Assembly: GCF_030064125.1 (NCBI RefSeq)
Contig: NZ_CP125957.1
Coordinates: 4,340,001-4,404,000, forward strand
Direction of reading: 5' to 3'
Length of the DNA: 64,000 nucleotides
Origin: Pseudomonas sp. G2-4
Lineage (GTDB): Bacteria; Pseudomonadota; Gammaproteobacteria; Pseudomonadales; Pseudomonadaceae
The position numbers and the translations under genes are program-made. Shown piece after piece: positions 40,472-47,984 of the stretch; position 1 is the first letter of the stretch; every line of letters starts with the position of its first letter. The notes beneath the pieces are model-generated. The model made no database searches. It saw only the letters and a program-made list of their open reading frames with translations, and was not told the origin of the DNA.

Positions 40472-40671
40472 GTAATCAGTGGGCAGAATATTCAGCCTTT
40501 TTCTTGTACAGCACCTTATATGAAATCAAATAACTTGGACAAAAAGGCGCTATATCTGACACGAATTGAAGCGCCGACTGACATATTCATTCCAAGCAAC
40601 CAAGCCCAAGTCCTACAAGGGTTTCGCACCATCTTCGAGCATTTTAAACGGAACGTAAAAACCACTGGACA

Positions 40672-40688
40672 TGTAGTACCAGCTACAT
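40672..40688. promoter_or_regulatory. Candidate operator in front of the RpiR-type gene
   Basis: A perfect inverted repeat with six-base arms ATGTAG and CTACAT and a six-base spacer (TACCAG) spans about 40671-40688. It lies 60 bases before the regulator's ATG in an AT-rich stretch. Autoregulation is inference. The rest of the 277-base gap shows only a weak 56-codon frame at 40520-40690 without a ribosome site. Confidence 0.45.
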
Positions 40689-40748
40689 AAATACTATTTT
40701 CAGGAGTAATGAAAGAAATCCAACACACCATCCCAGCAAGGAGCACGG

Positions 40749-41603
40749 ATGCCGCCCCTCAGAGACCTGATCACCGATCCCGGCCTCGTTTTGACGCCGT
40801 CGGAACGCAAGGTCGTACGAGCCCTGCTCGATCACTATCCACGCAACGGCCTGGGGCCGATGTCGCGCCTTTCAGACCATGCCGGCGTCAGCGACCCGAC
40901 CATCGTGCGGCTGGTGAAAAAACTCGGGTTTGGCGGTTATGCCGAATTCCAGGATGCGCTGCTCAGTGACATGGACCATCGCCTGCGCTCTCCTCGCACG
41001 CTGTTGCAACCCCGGGCCAAATTGCCGCAAGGCGATACCTGGAGCCAATACCTGGCCGCCAGCCAACGCGCCCTCATCAACACCCAGGCCCTGACCCAGC
41101 CTGAAGACGTGCGCATTCTCGTCCAGTGGCTACTCGACAGCCGGCACCAGGTGCATTGCTTCGGTGGACGCTTCAGCAGCTTTCTTGCCCACTATCTGCT
41201 CAACCACTTGCGCCTGCTGCGCGCCGGCTGCTTTGCCCTGGAAGACAACGCCCAGCTGCCTGACCGGTTGTTCGACGTACAGCGCCAGGACGTGGTGTTG
41301 ATCTTCGATTATCGTCGCTACCAGGCCCAGGCCCTGCGTGTAGCCAGCGCAGCCAAGGAACGCCACGCCCGGGTCGTACTGTTCAGCGACGTCTACGCGT
41401 CACCATTGCGCGAGCTGGCCGACCTGATTATCAGCGCGCCGGTAGAATCGGTCTCGGCCTTCGACACCCTGGTACCGGCGCTGGCCCAGGTCGAGGCGCT
41501 GATCGCCTGCATGACCCTGCAATGTCCTGACCTGGCCGAACGCCTGGAAGGTATCGACGCCTTACGCACGGAATTCAACACGCACCTGTTGGAGGAAAAA
41601 TAA
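40749..41603 (+). CDS. MurR/RpiR family transcriptional regulator
   Basis: 284 residues, AAGGAG five bases before the ATG. The N-terminal RpiR helix-turn-helix is LTPSERKVVRALLDHYPRNGLGPMSRLSDHAGVSDPTIVRLVKKLGF. The C-terminal SIS domain, about 115-250, includes QVHCFGGRFSSFLAHYLLNHL and VVLFSDVYASPLRELADLII. SIS domains in this family bind phosphosugars or other small ligands. It starts the cluster that runs to 47984; the next gene follows after two bases, so it is in the operon it probably controls. Confidence 0.9.
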   Translation: MPPLRDLITDPGLVLTPSERKVVRALLDHYPRNGLGPMSRLSDHAGVSDPTIVRLVKKLGFGGYAEFQDALLSDMDHRLRSPRTLLQPRAKLPQGDTWSQYLAASQRALINTQALTQPEDVRILVQWLLDSRHQVHCFGGRFSSFLAHYLLNHLRLLRAGCFALEDNAQLPDRLFDVQRQDVVLIFDYRRYQAQALRVASAAKERHARVVLFSDVYASPLRELADLIISAPVESVSAFDTLVPALAQVEALIACMTLQCPDLAERLEGIDALRTEFNTHLLEEK

Positions 41604-41605
41604 GG

Positions 41606-42250
41606 ATGTTCTCGCTCCCCCACCGCTCCCCCCGGGACTTGCCGTTCACCCGTGATCACACGGCACTGCTCTTGGTGGACATGCAACGCGCCTGGCTGGA
41701 ACCACAATTCGACACCCATCTGGACGCTCCCGACGCTGCGTATTTCATTCGCCGTGCCCGCCATCAGGTTATTCCCAACCAACAGCGCTTGCTCAACGCG
41801 ATGCGAGCAGCGCAGCACAACGTGCTGCACACCCACATCGAAAGCCTCACTGCCGATGGCCGCGACCGCTCCCTGGATCACAAGCTGTCGGACATGCACC
41901 TGCCCAAGGGCAGCCCCGAAGCGCAGATCATTGCCGAGCTGACGCCGCTGGAAAACGAAATCGTGTTGCCCAAGACGTCCTCGGGCGTTTTCAACTCCAC
42001 CAATATCGACTACGTGCTGCGCAACCTGCAGACCCGCCACTTGATCGTTGCCGGCATCGTCACCGACCAGTGCGTCGACATGGCCGTGCGCGACGCCGCC
42101 GACCGCGGCTACCTGGTCACATTGGTAGAAGATGCCTGCGCCACTTACACCGAACAACGGCACCTGGCGTGCCTGAACGCGATCAAGGGCTATTGCTGGA
42201 TCACCGATACCGACACCGTACTCGGGCGCTTGCAGGAGATGCAGCCGTGA
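41606..42250 (+). CDS. Isochorismatase-fold cysteine hydrolase
   Basis: 214 residues. The catalytic triad of the family is present: Asp25 (LLLVDMQRAW), Lys123 (VLPKTSSGVFNST) and Cys156 (GIVTDQCVDMAVRDA), with a cis-peptide region before the Cys. Family members hydrolyse amides (nicotinamide, N-carbamoyl compounds) or isochorismate. An amide or carbamoyl substrate fits the nitrogen-metabolism neighbours. It begins two bases after the regulator stop and overlaps the next gene by four bases (GTGA). Confidence 0.88.
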   Translation: MFSLPHRSPRDLPFTRDHTALLLVDMQRAWLEPQFDTHLDAPDAAYFIRRARHQVIPNQQRLLNAMRAAQHNVLHTHIESLTADGRDRSLDHKLSDMHLPKGSPEAQIIAELTPLENEIVLPKTSSGVFNSTNIDYVLRNLQTRHLIVAGIVTDQCVDMAVRDAADRGYLVTLVEDACATYTEQRHLACLNAIKGYCWITDTDTVLGRLQEMQP

Positions 42251-43599
42251 ACCGCCTTGATACCGCAACGCCCCTGGCACCGTTGCCCGTCACGACACTG
42301 GTGAGCACCGACCTGATCGGCGTAACCCGCGGGCGCTCGTTCCCCAGCGATGAACTGCCCCACTACGTCACCGCCGGTTGCGGCTGGGTGCCGGCCAACA
42401 GCGCGCTGACGCCCCAAGACATCATCGCCTCGGCCAACCCCTGGGGCGCGTATGGCGACCTGCGGCTGATCCCGGACCTGTCCAGCCGCGTGACCGTCAA
42501 CAACGGCCCCGACGCCCAGGCCCCCGCCCTGGATTTCATTCATTGCGACGTGCGCGAGACCGACGGCCGACCCTGGAGCACCTGCCCGCGCACCCTGTTG
42601 CATGACGAAGTGGAGCGTTATCGGACTGAGCTGAACTTGCAGGTGTTCGCCGCGTTCGAGCATGAATTCAACCTCAGTGCCACACCGGCCCAACCTGATC
42701 GCCTGGCTTTCAGCCTCCAGGCCCAGCGCCAGCAGGCCGGGTTCGCCGGATGGCTGCTCAGCGCATTGCGCGCCGGTGGTGTCGAACCGGAAATGTTCCT
42801 GCCGGAATACGGCAAGCAGCAGTACGAGATCACCTGCCGCCCAGCCCTGGGCGTGGCCGCCGCCGACCGTGCCGTGAACGTGCGGGAAATCACCCGCGAA
42901 ATCGCCCGGCAAATGGGCCTGGCGCTCAGCTTCGCTCCCAAGACCGCGGAGAATGCCGTGTGCAACGGTGTGCACCTGCACCTGAGCCTGCAAGACCTGA
43001 GCGGTGATCCGGTGCTCCATGACACCGCCAGCAGCAACGGCTTGTCCAGCCTCGGCCAGCACTGGGCTGCCGGTGTGCTGCACTATCTACCTGCGCTGTG
43101 CGCGCTGACCGCACCGACGCCGGTGTCCTACGAGCGCCTGCAACCCCATCACTGGAGTGCATCCTATGCTTGCCTGGGACAGCGCAACCGCGAAGCGGCG
43201 TTGCGTATCTGCCCGACCGTGAGCCTGGGCGGAAAACCCGTGGCAAACCAGTACAACCTGGAATTCCGCGCCATGGACGCCACCGCTTCGCCGCACCTGG
43301 CGATGGCCGCGCTGTTGATCGCCGGGCGCCTGGGCATCGAGCAGCAACTGGCGCTGAATGCCGTGACCGATGAAATACCCGATGAACTGAATGAAGAACA
43401 ACGTCGCGCCCGTGGCATTATCGCCCTGCCGACGACCCTGGCCCAGGCACTGGATTGCCTGCGCCACAGCGGAGCGCTGCTCGAGGCCCTGCCCGGCCCC
43501 TTGGTCGAAACCTACTTTGCCTTGAAGGCCCAGGAGCTGGCCTTGACCCAGGCGCTGTCACCTGCCGAGCGTTGTGAGCACTATGCACGAATCTATTGA
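42247..43599 (+). CDS. Glutamine synthetase family protein (gamma-glutamyl-amine ligase-like)
   Basis: 450 residues from a GTG at 42247 overlapping the previous stop. The GS catalytic domain is recognisable: FAAFEHEFNLS (metal Glu), GGVEPEMFLPEYGKQQYEITCRPA, NAVCNGVHLHLSLQD (ATP/metal His), HHWSASYACLGQRNREAALRICP (substrate Arg) and NLEFRAMDATASPHLAMAAL. The beta-grasp N-terminus is short. It resembles the PuuA/PauA-type and other GS-like ligases rather than GlnA (no adenylylation Tyr loop seen). It probably ligates glutamate to an amine or amino acid. The 3' end overlaps the next gene. Confidence 0.88.
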   Translation: MNRLDTATPLAPLPVTTLVSTDLIGVTRGRSFPSDELPHYVTAGCGWVPANSALTPQDIIASANPWGAYGDLRLIPDLSSRVTVNNGPDAQAPALDFIHCDVRETDGRPWSTCPRTLLHDEVERYRTELNLQVFAAFEHEFNLSATPAQPDRLAFSLQAQRQQAGFAGWLLSALRAGGVEPEMFLPEYGKQQYEITCRPALGVAAADRAVNVREITREIARQMGLALSFAPKTAENAVCNGVHLHLSLQDLSGDPVLHDTASSNGLSSLGQHWAAGVLHYLPALCALTAPTPVSYERLQPHHWSASYACLGQRNREAALRICPTVSLGGKPVANQYNLEFRAMDATASPHLAMAALLIAGRLGIEQQLALNAVTDEIPDELNEEQRRARGIIALPTTLAQALDCLRHSGALLEALPGPLVETYFALKAQELALTQALSPAERCEHYARIY

Positions 43600-44335
43600 A
43601 TGTGCTGAGTCGGGCCTCTACACCAGGCCGGCTTACCGACTGATCCGGGAAGACGCCGAGCATCCGTTGGTGCTGGTGTGCGAGCACGCCAGCCGCTTCA
43701 TTCCCGCTGCGCTGAACGATCTGGGCTTGGATGAAACCGCCTCCCAGGAGCACATTGCCTGGGACATCGGTGCCTTTGCCCTGGCCGAACGCTTGTCCGA
43801 AACCCTCGGTGCGACCTTGTTGGCGGCCAATTATTCACGACTGTTGATCGATCTGAACCGCCCGCTGCATGTACCGGACAGCATTCCGCCCCAGAGCGAG
43901 ATCTACCAGGTCCCAGGCAACCAGGCCCTGGACGAGGCCACGCGCGAGTATCGCCGCCAGTGCCTGTTCCATCCCTTCCATGATCGGTTGCGGACGTTGA
44001 TCGACCAGCGCCTGGCCGCCAACCGGCCAGTGCGGGTGGTGGGCATCCACAGTTTCACCCCGGTGTTCTATGGCCAACCGCGCGCGCTGGAAGCCGGCGT
44101 GCTGTTCGGCGAGGCCAAGGACTACGCCCAGCACATCGTCGACGGGCTGAGCCGGCATTCGCTGCGCGCGGCGGGCAACCAGCCCTACAAGATCAACCCC
44201 TTGACCGACATGACAGTCCCGGAGCACGGCGATGCCCGCGGCCTGGATTCAGTGTTGATCGAAGTGCGCAACGACCTGCTGCGCAGCCCCGAGTCGGTAA
44301 GGGCCTGGAGCGCTTACCTGGCCCCATTGTTGTAG
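43583..44335 (+). CDS. N-formylglutamate amidohydrolase family protein
   Basis: 250 residues from the ATG at 43583; a GTG at 43574 is possible. Family (FGase/HutG) features: LVLVCEHASRFIPAALNDLGL with zinc-binding Glu/His, HIAWDIGAFALAERLSETLGA, LLIDLNRPLH, VVGIHSFTPVFYGQPRALEAGVLFG (third ligand) and the C-terminal SVLIEVRNDLLRSPESVRAW. FGase removes a formyl group from N-formylglutamate in histidine breakdown. No hut gene is near, and the coupling to a GS-like ligase suggests a different N-acyl or glutamyl substrate. It overlaps the upstream gene by 17 bases. Confidence 0.87.
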   Translation: MHESIECAESGLYTRPAYRLIREDAEHPLVLVCEHASRFIPAALNDLGLDETASQEHIAWDIGAFALAERLSETLGATLLAANYSRLLIDLNRPLHVPDSIPPQSEIYQVPGNQALDEATREYRRQCLFHPFHDRLRTLIDQRLAANRPVRVVGIHSFTPVFYGQPRALEAGVLFGEAKDYAQHIVDGLSRHSLRAAGNQPYKINPLTDMTVPEHGDARGLDSVLIEVRNDLLRSPESVRAWSAYLAPLL

Positions 44336-44411
44336 GAAAGCAGTGGCGAGGTTTGAACGGCAAGCGACAAGCAAGAGCACACCCACACACAGCTGAGAAG
44401 GAGAACGGCTT

Positions 44412-45761
44412 ATGAGTATCGAGGCATTTGGCTACAAACAGGAATTGAAACGCAGCCTGTCGCTGACAGACCTGGTGGTGTACGGGATGATTTTCATGAT
44501 CCCCATCGCACCGTTTGGCGTGTATGGCTACGTGAACGCCGAGGCGCCGGGAATGGTGCCGCTGGCGTATATCATCGGCATGGTGGCGATGCTGTTCACC
44601 GCGTTGAGCTATGGCAGCATGGCCCGGGCCTTCCCGGTGGCCGGCTCCGTCTACTCCTACGCGCAACGGGGACTTAACCCACACGTCGGCTTCATCGCCG
44701 GCTGGCTGATGTTGCTGGACTACCTGCTGATCCCGCCGCTGCTCTATGTCTATGCCGCCATGGCGTTGAACCACTTGTACCCGGACATTCCCAAGGTCGG
44801 TTTCATCCTGGCGTTCCTGGTCAGCGCCACCTTCGTCAACCTGCGGGGCATCACGTTCACCGCGCGGATGAACATCATTTTTCTGCTGGCGCAGTTGGTG
44901 GTGCTGGGGATTTTCCTGTTCTATGCCTGGAATGCCCTGCACGGTGGCGCCGGTAACGGCCAACTGACCCTGGCGCCGCTGTACAGCCCGGAACACTTCA
45001 ACTTCGCGCTGCTGATGCAAGCCGTGTCCATCGCTGTATTGTCGTTCCTGGGGTTTGATGCCATCTCCACCCTGGCCGAAGAGATCAAGGACGACCCGGG
45101 CCGCAGCGTCGGCAAGGCAGCGCTGGTGACCTTGCTGGTGATGGGGGCGATTTTCGTGGTGCAGACCTGGATCGCCACTGACCTGGCGGCCGGCATGGGC
45201 TTCAAGTCCGCCGACACCGCGTTCTATGAGATCGCCGAACTGGCGGCCGGCAGCTGGCTGGCAACCTTGACCGCGGTCGCCACGGCGCTGGCCTGGGGCG
45301 TCGCGGTGGCGATCACCTCGCAAGCAGCGGTGTCGCGCCTGTTGTTCGGCATGGCCCGGGACGGCAAGTTGCCCAAGGTCCTGGCCAAGGTCCATCCGAA
45401 ACACAACACCCCGTACGTGAGCATTTACCTGGTCGCGGTGCTGTCGCTGCTGATCTGCTACCTGTTCATCAACGCGGTGGACACCCTGACCTCCCTGGTC
45501 AACTTCGGCGCCCTGAGCGGCTTCATGCTGTTGCACATCACGGTGATCAACCATTACTGGCGCCGTCAGCGGTCCGGCCAGGTGATTCGCCATCTGCTCT
45601 GCCCGCTGGTGGGCTTCGTGATCGTCGCGGCCATCATGTACAACATGGGCGTGGATGCGCAGAAACTCGGCCTGATCTGGGTGGCCGCAGGCGTGGTCTA
45701 TCTGTGTGTGCTGAATAAATTCGGCAGCCCCACGGCGCTGCCGGATCCGGCCGCTCCTTGA
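44412..45761 (+). CDS. APC family amino acid/amine permease
   Basis: 449 residues, about 12 membrane helices. It starts LKRSLSLTDLVVYGMIFMIPIAPFGVYGYV, with the unwound GXG-type helix 1 of APC transporters. FPVAGSVYSYAQRGLNPHVGFIAGWLMLLDY is helix 3, and SFLGFDAISTLAEEIKDDP is the helix 6 signature. It is closest in style to PuuP and other amine/amino-acid importers. AGAAGGAGAA precedes the ATG. It lies 76 bases downstream of the FGase-like gene and probably brings in the cluster's substrate. Confidence 0.92.
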   Translation: MSIEAFGYKQELKRSLSLTDLVVYGMIFMIPIAPFGVYGYVNAEAPGMVPLAYIIGMVAMLFTALSYGSMARAFPVAGSVYSYAQRGLNPHVGFIAGWLMLLDYLLIPPLLYVYAAMALNHLYPDIPKVGFILAFLVSATFVNLRGITFTARMNIIFLLAQLVVLGIFLFYAWNALHGGAGNGQLTLAPLYSPEHFNFALLMQAVSIAVLSFLGFDAISTLAEEIKDDPGRSVGKAALVTLLVMGAIFVVQTWIATDLAAGMGFKSADTAFYEIAELAAGSWLATLTAVATALAWGVAVAITSQAAVSRLLFGMARDGKLPKVLAKVHPKHNTPYVSIYLVAVLSLLICYLFINAVDTLTSLVNFGALSGFMLLHITVINHYWRRQRSGQVIRHLLCPLVGFVIVAAIMYNMGVDAQKLGLIWVAAGVVYLCVLNKFGSPTALPDPAAP

Positions 45762-45766
45762 GGTCC

Positions 45767-45790
45767 GGCGGTCGAAGGGTTCGACCCGCC
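45767..45790 (+). promoter_or_regulatory. Hairpin between the permease and succinyltransferase genes
   Basis: GGCGGTCGAA pairs with TTCGACCCGCC across a three-base loop with one bulged C. No T run follows, so it may be a partial terminator or an mRNA-processing/stability element within the operon. Confidence 0.5.
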
Positions 45791-45871
45791 GTGGTTATTA
45801 CGCGTGGACATCGACAGTGATCGTCAAGCCCGGTGCCTGTCACCGGGCCTTCTGGAACAGGAGTGCAATCC

Positions 45872-46888
45872 ATGCTGGCTTTACGTCCAGTGCAATTAAC
45901 CGATCTGCCCCAACTGCAGCAACTGGCCAGGGACAGCCTGGTGGGCGTCACCTCGCTTCCAGACGATACCGAGCGCCTGCAGGAGAAAATCCTCGACTCG
46001 TGCGCCTCGTTCGAGGCCGATGTACGAAGCCCTGGCGGGGAGAGCTATTTTTTCGTCCTGCAGGATCTGGTATCCGGGCGCCTGGCAGGCTGCTCGGAGA
46101 TTCTCGCCAGCACCGGTTGCAACGAACCGTTCTACAGTTTGCGCAACCGGCCGTTCTCCAGCGAGTCCCGGGAATTGAACATCCACCATGGCGTGCCGGC
46201 GCTGTCGCTGTGCCAGGACCTCAACGGCCAGACATTGCTGCGCGGTTTTCACATCGACGCCGAGCGGGTGCGCACGCCGGAGTCGGAGCTGCTGTCCCGG
46301 GCCCGGTTGATGTTTATCGCCGCCCACCCCCACCGCTTTGCCGAATCGGTGATCACTGAAATCGTCGGCTTCAGCAGCGAGGACGGCCAATCGCCCTTCT
46401 GGGACGCCATCGGCCAACATTTCTTCGACCTGCCCTACGTCGAGGCTGAACGCTTGTGTGGCCTGCAAAGTCGTACCTTCCTCGCCGAACTGATGCCGCA
46501 ATACCCGATCTACGTGCCCATGCTCCCTCCGGCGGCCCAGGCCTGCATCGGCCGGGTGCATCCCGACGGCCAGGAAGCCTTCGACATCCTGGAGCGCGAG
46601 GGTTTTGAAACCAACAGCTACGTGGACATCTTCGACGGCGGGCCGACGTTGCATGCCCGTATCGCGAACATCCACTCCATCACCCAAAGCCATGTCGCCA
46701 TGGCCCGGCAAAGCGCGCAGATCGACGCCCGGGGGCGTTATCTGGTGAGCAACGACAGCCTCGGGAACTACCGGGCCATCGTGGCCGAACTGGATCTCGA
46801 CGCCGACGGTACCGTGGCGCTGTCGCCAGACATGCTGGCAGCCTTGGGCGTCATGGATGGCGAGCAGGTCCGGGTGGTTGCCTTATGA
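45872..46888 (+). CDS. aruF: Arginine N-succinyltransferase-like protein, first subunit (AruF/AstA)
   Basis: 338 residues from the ATG at 45872 with CAGGAG upstream. AstA/AruF hallmarks: LALRPVQLTDLPQLQQLARDSLVGVTSLP, SRARLMFIAAHPHRFAESVITEIVGF, SPFWDAIGQHFFDLPY, AELMPQYPIYVPMLPPAAQACIG and ETNSYVDIFDGGPTLHA. AstA joins succinyl-CoA to Arg (or Orn) at the start of the AST pathway. In a canonical aru operon aruC precedes and aruD, aruB, aruE follow; none is here. It is therefore either a paralogue with another amino-acid substrate or a displaced pair. Residues at the acceptor site cannot be judged by eye. Confidence 0.85.
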   Translation: MLALRPVQLTDLPQLQQLARDSLVGVTSLPDDTERLQEKILDSCASFEADVRSPGGESYFFVLQDLVSGRLAGCSEILASTGCNEPFYSLRNRPFSSESRELNIHHGVPALSLCQDLNGQTLLRGFHIDAERVRTPESELLSRARLMFIAAHPHRFAESVITEIVGFSSEDGQSPFWDAIGQHFFDLPYVEAERLCGLQSRTFLAELMPQYPIYVPMLPPAAQACIGRVHPDGQEAFDILEREGFETNSYVDIFDGGPTLHARIANIHSITQSHVAMARQSAQIDARGRYLVSNDSLGNYRAIVAELDLDADGTVALSPDMLAALGVMDGEQVRVVAL

Positions 46889-46949
46889 ATCGCATTCAAT
46901 CCCGTGCCGTGCATCGACGCTTCGACCGACACGAAGAAGGAGCCGCATC

Positions 46950-47984
46950 ATGATTGTCCGCCCGGTCGCCATCACCGACCTGCCCGCGCTACTGGACCTC
47001 GCCCGCTGCGCGGGCCCTGGGTTTACCAGTCTGCCGGCCAATGAAGAGCGCCTGGCCCATCGCGTGCGCTGGGCCCAACGCACCTTTGCCGGGCAAGTCG
47101 AACGTGCCGACGCCGATTACCTGTTCGTACTCGAGGATGATGACCGGCAAGTGGTGGGCATTAGCGCCCTGACCGGCGCGGTCGGCCTGCGCGAGCCTTG
47201 GTACAACTACCGGGTCGGGGTCACCGTCAGCTCGGCGCCTGAGCTGGGTATCCAGCGGCAGATCCCGACGCTGTTTCTCAACAACGAGATGACCGGGCAA
47301 TCGGAAGTCTGCTCGTTGTTCCTGCATCCCGAGCAGCGTCGCGGTCACAATGGGCGCCTGTTGTCCCTGGCGCGCCTGCTGTTCGTCGCTGAGTTTTCCC
47401 AGCTATTTGGTGAAAAGCTGATTGCCGAATTGCGCGGCCATGCCGATGAACAAGGCTGCTCGCCGTTCTGGGACAGCCTGGGACGGCATTTCTTCAAGAA
47501 GGATTTCAGCTACGCCGATCAGTTGTCCGGCATGGGCAACAAATCGTTCATTGCCGAGTTGATGCCGCGCCAGCCGCTGTACACCTGCCTGCTCACTGAA
47601 CAGGCCCAGGCCGTGATCGGCAAGGCTCATGCGAACACCGAGCCGGCCATGAAGATTCTCGGCGCCGAGGGCTTTGCCCATAAGGGCTATATCGACATTT
47701 TCGACGCCGGCCCGGTGATCGAGGCACCGGTTTCGAAGATCCGCACGGTGCGCGACAGCCAGTCGCTGACCCTGGCCGTCGGCACGCTGGACGAACAGGC
47801 ACCGGTCTGGTTGATCCATAATCGGCGCCTGGAGAACTGCCGCGTGACCAGCGCCCGGGCACGCCTGCACGGCCACAGCCTGCTCGTCGACCGGCTCACC
47901 GCCAAGCGCCTGCAAGTACAACCGGGCGACACGGTGCGCGCCGTGGCGTTGCTCAAGCAAGGGAAGCAGGCGGTGGCGGCATAA
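46950..47984 (+). CDS. aruG: Arginine N-succinyltransferase-like protein, second subunit (AruG/AstA)
   Basis: 344 residues from the ATG at 46950 (GAAGGAG upstream). It has the same architecture as the previous gene: MIVRPVAITDLPALLDLARCAGPGFTSLP, FLHPEQRRGHNGRLLSLARLLFVAEF, SPFWDSLGRHFFKKDFSYAD and GYIDIFDAGPVIEAPVSKIRTVRDS. P. aeruginosa uses a heteromer of AruF (AruAI) and AruG (AruAII), and this pair mirrors that order. It ends at a short hairpin and may be the last gene of the RpiR-led cluster. Confidence 0.87.
   Translation: MIVRPVAITDLPALLDLARCAGPGFTSLPANEERLAHRVRWAQRTFAGQVERADADYLFVLEDDDRQVVGISALTGAVGLREPWYNYRVGVTVSSAPELGIQRQIPTLFLNNEMTGQSEVCSLFLHPEQRRGHNGRLLSLARLLFVAEFSQLFGEKLIAELRGHADEQGCSPFWDSLGRHFFKKDFSYADQLSGMGNKSFIAELMPRQPLYTCLLTEQAQAVIGKAHANTEPAMKILGAEGFAHKGYIDIFDAGPVIEAPVSKIRTVRDSQSLTLAVGTLDEQAPVWLIHNRRLENCRVTSARARLHGHSLLVDRLTAKRLQVQPGDTVRAVALLKQGKQAVAA

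Follow-up and report, generated by a model that had tools for sequence, protein, structure and literature searches.

Gene content and conservation of the cluster

A window of 64,000 nucleotides from Pseudomonas sp. G2-4 (contig NZ_CP125957.1, positions 4,340,001 to 4,404,000) contains a cluster of seven genes, here called R, I, G, F, T, AruF2 and AruG2 (Table 1; the last two together are AruFG2). All seven were confirmed on the plus strand in the order first described. The first four are closely packed, with 2 bases between R and I and overlaps of 4 (I-G) and 17 bases (G-F), followed by gaps of 76 (F-T), 110 (T-AruF2) and 61 bases (AruF2-AruG2). This agrees with an earlier sequence-only reading of the locus, which had described seven co-directional genes with a tight front and had proposed a single catabolic-type cluster.

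Table 1. Features of the cluster, in coordinates of the window
Feature	Position	Strand	Description
RpiR operator palindrome (candidate)	40671..40688		ATGTAG-N6-CTACAT; 0 mismatches, perfect arms
R	40749..41603	+	RpiR/MurR-family regulator; HTH_6 43.4 bits and SIS 59.5 bits, both above the gathering scores (Pfam)
I	41606..42250	+	Isochorismatase-fold cysteine hydrolase, predicted carboxamide hydrolase; Pfam Isochorismatase
G	42247..43599	+	Glutamine-synthetase-like, predicted gamma-glutamyl-amine ligase, counterpart of PA5508/PauA7; GTG start; Pfam Gln-synt
F	43583..44335	+	FGase-family (PF05013) hydrolase, predicted gamma-glutamyl-amino-acid amidohydrolase; ATG inside a longer listed open reading frame
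T	44412..45761	+	APC-family permease, predicted substrate importer; Pfam AA_permease
aruF2 leader	45766..45851	+	Hairpin 45766-45791, GCGTGG at 45802, CGACAGTGAT 45812-45821, hairpin 45826-45851
AruF2	45872..46888	+	Second arginine/ornithine succinyltransferase alpha-like subunit; Pfam AstA (PF04958)
AruG2	46950..47984	+	Second AstA-type beta-like subunit; Pfam AstA (PF04958)

The proposal of one cluster was borne out by neighbourhood comparison in Pseudomonas, where it is conserved. Similarity to F was the criterion for collecting loci, and the best 80 of 95 candidates were kept, so that a loss of F cannot show up among them. The complete seven-gene order on one strand, headed by R, was present in 70 of the 80 loci, all 70 with the 17-base G/F overlap. 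The ten exceptions comprise a contig end (L043), four loci with deletions (L048-L051), two in which I/T or G are incomplete (L087, L097), and three consisting of R-I-G-F-T only, without AruFG2 (L109, which is P. aeruginosa PA7, L111 and L113). A survey of 119 genomes of the genus as defined by the database, from which P. aeruginosa may fall outside, recovered F in 35 (E<=1e-100, the next matches being at 5e-5) and AruF2 in 38, with both in 32 (hypergeometric 1.5e-19, ignoring kinship). AruF2 was separated from AruF at an identity of at least 62%, and one genome near this limit (G061, 63%) was assigned through the position of the gene beside the core. AruF2 occurred without F in six of its 38 genomes (G002, G021, G038, G087, G088, G107) and F without AruF2 in three of its 35 (G048, G059, G073). 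The conservation of the cluster exceeds chance, and the cluster is composed of two modules, a core of R-I-G-F(-T) and an AruF2/AruG2 accessory.

Core enzymes and proposed pathway

Among the NCBIfam matches listed, R, I, G, F and T exceed no cut-off. G aligns with PDB 4hpp (PA5508) at 625 bits across residues 10-450 of 450; an identity as gamma-glutamylputrescine synthetase (PuuA, NF045547) was rejected at 272.4 bits against a cut-off of 650. F scores 142 bits against FGase PF05013 (cut-off 28.9) and only 30.7 against the N-formylglutamate deformylase HutG (TIGR02017, cut-off 278.75), so that HutG was rejected as well. It is 43% identical over 235 residues to a Ruegeria protein whose gene adjoins genes for a glutamine-synthetase-like protein, an aldehyde dehydrogenase and an iron alcohol dehydrogenase. 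In I, residues D25, K123 and C156, which we take to be the catalytic triad, are invariant across 77 rows from Pseudomonas and three alphaproteobacteria. Its closest solved relatives include the cysteine hydrolase 6xix, a biuret hydrolase and RutB, but with 91.3 bits against biuret hydrolase (cut-off 370) and 78.1 against RutB (cut-off 377.95) it was accepted as neither.

In the passages cited, PA5508 is described as a gamma-glutamyl ligase that favours bulky amines such as catecholamines above polyamines (PMC6478659). It is also reported there not to be induced by polyamines, so that its usual name, "polyamine synthetase homologue", suits it badly. The PA5508/PauA7 operon is represented in P. 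aeruginosa PA7 by R-I-G-F-T in the same order and at 63-76% identity, without AruFG2 in the stretch; the comparison was made with PA7 rather than PAO1, and PA5506-PA5510 were equated with the other core genes by gene order. In the parts of two reports cited here, PA5506-PA5509 are over-expressed together in plasmid-carrying strains (PMC6246594), and pauA7 and PA5510 appear in a table of a paper on the Crc regulon (PMC6235884).

G and F correspond to the frame of the gamma-glutamyl-ethanolamine pathway of Chromohalobacter, Streptomyces (GlnA4) and Roseobacters. According to the cited passages, a glutamine-synthetase-like enzyme glutamylates the amine, two dehydrogenases convert the product to a carboxylate, and glutamate and glycine are then set free by a PF05013 enzyme; for the later steps this is a prediction with proteomic support (PMC9397018, PMC6529630, PMC10132767). 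The PF05013 family is there assigned the role of gamma-glutamylglycine amidohydrolase (PMC9397018, PMC6529630); the gene is accompanied by one for an RpiR regulator, and the protein is more abundant on phosphatidylethanolamine (PMC10132767). The core shares the ligase and the PF05013 hydrolase, with Roseobacters also the RpiR gene, and would likewise start with glutamylation and end with deglutamylation. It differs in that none of the seven genes encodes the iron alcohol dehydrogenase or the aldehyde dehydrogenase, whose position is taken by the hydrolase I, and in having an APC permease where the Ruegeria locus has a TRAP transporter. A further parallel is offered by the glutamyl-organic-amine synthetases, GoaS (NpaA1, AtdA1, IpuA as named there, and PuuA), for which ATP-dependent glutamylation of organic amines is likewise the first step, although the passages cited put PA5508 on a branch that neighbours the main GoaS one (PMC11335346). 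No description of this cluster or pathway was seen among the papers listed by the literature searches, which covered passages of the cited ones. The earlier statement that no described pathway with this set of genes was known is nevertheless not supported as worded, given that G, F and RpiR form the frame of the ethanolamine pathway and that the structure of PA5508 has been solved. The earlier suggestion of a glutamyl intermediate, on the other hand, is supported, a gamma-glutamyl intermediate being likely.

We give about an even chance to the reading that the core serves a gamma-glutamylation-dependent catabolism of amino acid amides. R, I, G, F and T would then form an operon that uses alpha-amino acid amides, or alpha-amino lactams, for nitrogen and carbon. 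T would bring the compound into the cell, and G would spend ATP to link the amine of this compound to the gamma-carboxyl group of glutamate. I would hydrolyse the carboxamide of the gamma-glutamyl compound to yield ammonia, after which F would cut the gamma-glutamyl bond to give glutamate and the free amino acid. Production of the carboxylate through amide hydrolysis by I would explain the regular presence of I, the racemase neighbours described below and the reports that PA5508 favours bulky amines. A testable substrate class would thereby be assigned to an operon that occurs in P. aeruginosa, in many fluorescent pseudomonads, in rhizobia and on a Klebsiella plasmid.

The core outside the genus and its linkage to a racemase

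The R-I-G-F core also occurs in Alphaproteobacteria and on a Klebsiella plasmid, and adjoining G and F genes lie on plasmids of Shinella, Ensifer, Roseomonas and others (P0003, P0004). A class-level search for G at E<=1e-90 hit just one of 274 genomes, that of the window itself, and the phylum was therefore searched with the G of Shinella. Among 398 genomes, 18 carried G (E<=1e-80), two of them from the genus of the window. From the other 16, two of which belong to its family, 18 loci were fetched by G alone and their genes read by tblastn; R, I, G and F all lie inside the fetched stretch in 14 loci, and T follows the core in three (L173-L175, the last cut by a contig end), as it does in PA7, L111 and L113.

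The gene after F in Shinella matches the alpha-amino-epsilon-caprolactam (ACL) racemase of A. obae (PDB 2zuk) across 433 of 434 residues with 813 bits. It scores 816 bits with two entries that bear no other name than "Aminotransferase class-III", and 470 with the amino acid amide racemase 6gio. Orthologues of this racemase type (PDB 2zuk, 3dxv, 6gio) lie near R-I-G-F in relatives within the phylum, on rhizobial plasmids and on a Klebsiella plasmid; at an identity of at least 54% they were found in six of the 18 fetched stretches and in the plasmid loci L163, L165 and L167. The ACL racemase (E<=1e-105) was found in seven of the 398 genomes, each time with G within 11 kb (hypergeometric 1.1e-10, ignoring kinship). 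Klebsiella accounts for 44 of the 110 plasmid records matched by G; in the one that was opened, from K. quasipneumoniae (L208 5421-12123), I-F-R face G, an APC permease and the racemase, with identities of 48% for I, 38% for F and only 26% for the permease to the proteins of the window and 48% for the racemase to that of Shinella. ACL racemases also racemise amino acid amides, as stated in the passage cited (PMC7431475). Such neighbours suggest that the substrates are alpha-amino acid amides or amino-lactams; the guanidino or basic compound guessed at earlier received no direct support from the core. If correct, this would give a physiological setting to the ACL racemase, an enzyme used in biocatalysis.

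Other genes also accompany these loci. M20 deacylases of the ArgE/DapE kind are present in L164, L181 and L187, and more distant class III enzymes in L164, L182, L183 and L186. A second isochorismatase-family gene lies beside the racemase in L167 (1091-1759), with copies 85-92% identical to it in L177 and L185. On the Ri plasmid pRi1724 (L168 8929-12125), an FGase-family gene adjoins genes annotated eutB/eutC.

Candidate operator and promoter of the regulator

The candidate operator, which the earlier reading had placed at 40672, is a palindrome between a -35-like TGGACA (40666-40671) and a -10-like AATACT (40690-40695). The promoter scan found three sites against 1.7 in shuffles, and the operator pattern with two mismatches has two matches in the window, not above chance, so that its weight lies in its conservation. 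A relaxed form, which matches 71 times in the 1.62 Mb of loci, stands no more than 140 bp ahead of R in 68 of the 77 loci that have R. The nine loci without it are L092, L095, L096, L099, L100 and L101, together with the diverged L109, L111 and L113; the operator region of L111 carries TGTAGTGAACACTACA. This conservation fits R as an autorepressor. R bound to the palindrome within the promoter would repress the operon until a compound of the pathway releases it, and both modules would stand under this one promoter.

The AruF2/AruG2 pair and its survival without the core

AruF2 and AruG2 share the PF04958 family with the succinyltransferase of the aruCFGDBE pathway. The cluster has no aruC, D, B or E by NCBIfam matches, and the pair was rejected as the ordinary one of that pathway, given a complete canonical aruC-F-G-D-B-E operon at about 5.01 Mb, in which every protein passes one or more of the NCBIfam cut-offs for the step concerned. 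The earlier reading had asked for this check, and the pair proved not to be the only one in the genome. AruF2 is 59% identical to the canonical AruF of the same genome. Both proteins exceed the AOST subfamily cut-off (TIGR03243, 284.35) with 383.4 and 427.8 bits, and AruG2 exceeds that of AstA/AruG (TIGR03244, 391) with 447.6; AruF2, at 415.5 bits, lies below the cut-off of the AruF equivalog (TIGR03245, 458.8), for which the canonical AruF scores 551.2. H227 of AruG2, presumably the counterpart of the active-site histidine of AstA, is conserved with canonical AruG. The pair is likely to transfer a succinyl group to a basic amino acid.

The history of the pair is recorded in deletion scars. 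In six genomes with AruF2 only (L142-L147), the sequence 5' of aruF2 aligns to the promoter and first 10-80 bases of R and then resumes around or just past the end of T, a jump which indicates that the remainder of R through T was deleted and the pair left behind the promoter of R. All six retain the CTAGACA and AATACT boxes and none retains both operator halves. Four further loci keep F, AruF2 and AruG2 intact: in L048, R and the operator are retained and most of I, G and T is lost; in L049-L051, just remnants of R, I/G and T are left and both operator halves are changed. The operator is thus decayed in the scarred loci L142-L147 and L049-L051, with L048 as the exception. On the tree, one change suffices for the six genomes with AruFG2 only and one for the four that keep F; the scars nonetheless differ among L048, L049-L051 and L142-L147.

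Selection was gauged with the simple pairwise Nei-Gojobori method on a choice of rows, six versus six for AruFG2 and four versus five for F; the values include time before the losses. Median dN/dS without and with the core was 0.138 and 0.127 for AruF2 and 0.140 and 0.119 for AruG2 (15 pairs each). For F it ranged from 0.055 to 0.078 in L048-L051 (six pairs) and from 0.068 to 0.121 in five intact loci (ten pairs). F and AruFG2 therefore look to be under selection without G and I. AruFG2 is not integral to the pathway and is an accessory with its own selective value, since six of the 38 genomes with AruF2 have lost the core and yet keep the pair behind the promoter of the regulator. This, together with the core lacking the pair in L109, L111, L113 and the three surveyed genomes named above, speaks against the earlier view of AruFG2 as part of one shared pathway. 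The pair, a duplicated succinyltransferase, would have been appended to the end of the operon within the P. fluorescens supergroup; its probable role is the succinylation of a basic amino acid, and it could work without the other five genes. The scars record how it outlived the operon to which it had been joined.

AruF2/AruG2 might also be a plain second arginine/ornithine succinyltransferase that landed behind the promoter, the modules sharing transcription but not chemistry. We find this somewhat doubtful, though it deserves serious attention and is compatible with the explanation preferred for the core. In a comparison of 85 AruF2 and 84 AruG2 rows with 21 canonical pairs (95% level, all-gap columns excluded), 129 AruF and 145 AruG columns held one and the same residue in second-type and canonical rows, which, with the similar dN/dS and the persistence of the pair after core deletion in six genomes, argues for this reading. 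The 24 AruF (14 strict) and 17 AruG (7 strict) differing columns and the score of AruF2 below the alpha-subunit cut-off suggest instead a changed specificity, and F is retained alongside the pair in four loci.

Weighing the amide reading

Several observations weigh against amide catabolism as the role of the core. The maintenance of F at low dN/dS without G and I in L048-L051 means that F seems to have another use, and no simple form of the amide model explains selection on F and AruFG2 in the absence of G and I. Nor does the model explain why I could not act first, or the presence of AruFG2. The characterised nearest relatives of I, albeit with low scores, use the ureido compounds biuret and ureidoacrylate, and catecholamines are reported as accepted by PA5508 in the passage cited (PMC6478659). 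Outside the genus, four of the 18 loci (L180, L184, L186, L187) have no nearby copy of one or more of R, I and F.

The racemase linkage has weaknesses of its own: six of the seven racemase genomes come from one family and so are not independent, only seven of the 18 genomes with G have the racemase, and class III enzymes dependent on PLP are common, with 18 matches in the genome of the window. No ACL racemase orthologue was found in that genome (best match 37%), so the substrate may differ there, and none appears among the genes that were compared at the other Pseudomonas loci, where no locus-by-locus search for it was made. As for regulation, the left operator half is altered alike in the six loci L092, L095, L096, L099, L100 and L101 despite an intact R. 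When three palindrome patterns were sought in 26 further loci, a match lay just upstream of R in only eight (L111, L149, L150, L169, L173-L176) and upstream of F in L166, with no match in 17. A hairpin between T and aruF2 could also split the transcripts, though the promoter and terminator scan lists no terminator there.

A wider form of the amide reading would account for the joint retention of F and AruFG2. Gamma-glutamylation catabolism of alpha-amino acid amides and lactams (lysine, ornithine lactam) would be the natural role of the ACL racemase, and the P. fluorescens group would have a parallel N-succinyl branch in which either the basic amino acid, once freed, or the lactam itself is acylated by AruFG2. 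F would serve both branches, and would for this reason survive together with AruFG2 where I, G and T are lost. We hold this extension to be rather improbable. Many pyoverdines of fluorescent pseudomonads end in a cyclised hydroxyornithine, a possible natural source.

Degradation of a bulky, catecholamine-like biogenic monoamine is unlikely in our view, despite the reported substrate preference of PA5508 and the precedent of the sister ethanolamine pathway, in which the glutamylated amine is oxidised. G would glutamylate the monoamine, other enzymes of the cell would oxidise the side chain, and I and F would finish the process. No oxidase or dehydrogenase is found among the seven genes, however; the steady partner is the amide-type hydrolase I, and the racemase linkage would be left without a role.

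Still less probable is a single route along the lines of the earlier reading, in which an arginine-like or other basic or guanidino compound would be degraded by way of N-glutamyl and N-succinyl intermediates and AruFG2 would supply an integral step. The identical order in 70 of 80 loci and the joint retention of F and AruFG2 in four loci without I, G and T speak for it. In the cited passages, the substrates of AruFG are arginine and ornithine, a putative citrullinase gene is often the neighbour of aruG, and a strain of P. fluorescens needs both to use citrulline, with that pair not established as second-type (PMC9007349). PF02274 was present in 93 of the 119 genomes, nearly all at arginine-deiminase-like scores, and did not settle the citrullinase idea. 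Core and AruFG2 each occur separately, on which ground an obligatory AruFG2 step was rejected, and none of the family matches of the seven genes hints at an enzyme that handles guanidines. Finally, it is very unlikely that I is a ureidohydrolase acting on a carbamoyl-amine (ureido) group, with G protecting another amine and F removing the glutamate, since I, for all its solved relatives, scores far below the respective cut-offs and the known racemase substrates are amides and lactams in the passage cited (PMC7431475).

The aruF2 leader and the downstream gene

A leader is conserved ahead of aruF2, with CGACAGTGAT at most 140 bp upstream of the gene in 84 of 85 rows and GCGTGG in 83. The hairpins were seen in an alignment of 26 of these rows, the second being missing in L045 and different in L102, L104, L107 and L151; judged by eye, its stem varies on both sides between lineages. 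No Rfam match was found for the leader, which is possibly a leader RNA or a regulator site, and CGACAGTGAT, GCGTGG and the hairpin may serve the pair separately. Downstream of AruG2 lies a gene that we take to be oxaloacetate-decarboxylase-like. Comparison of 84 loci revealed no connection between it and the pathway; it follows within 4 kb in 76 of them and directly (<400 bases) in 63.

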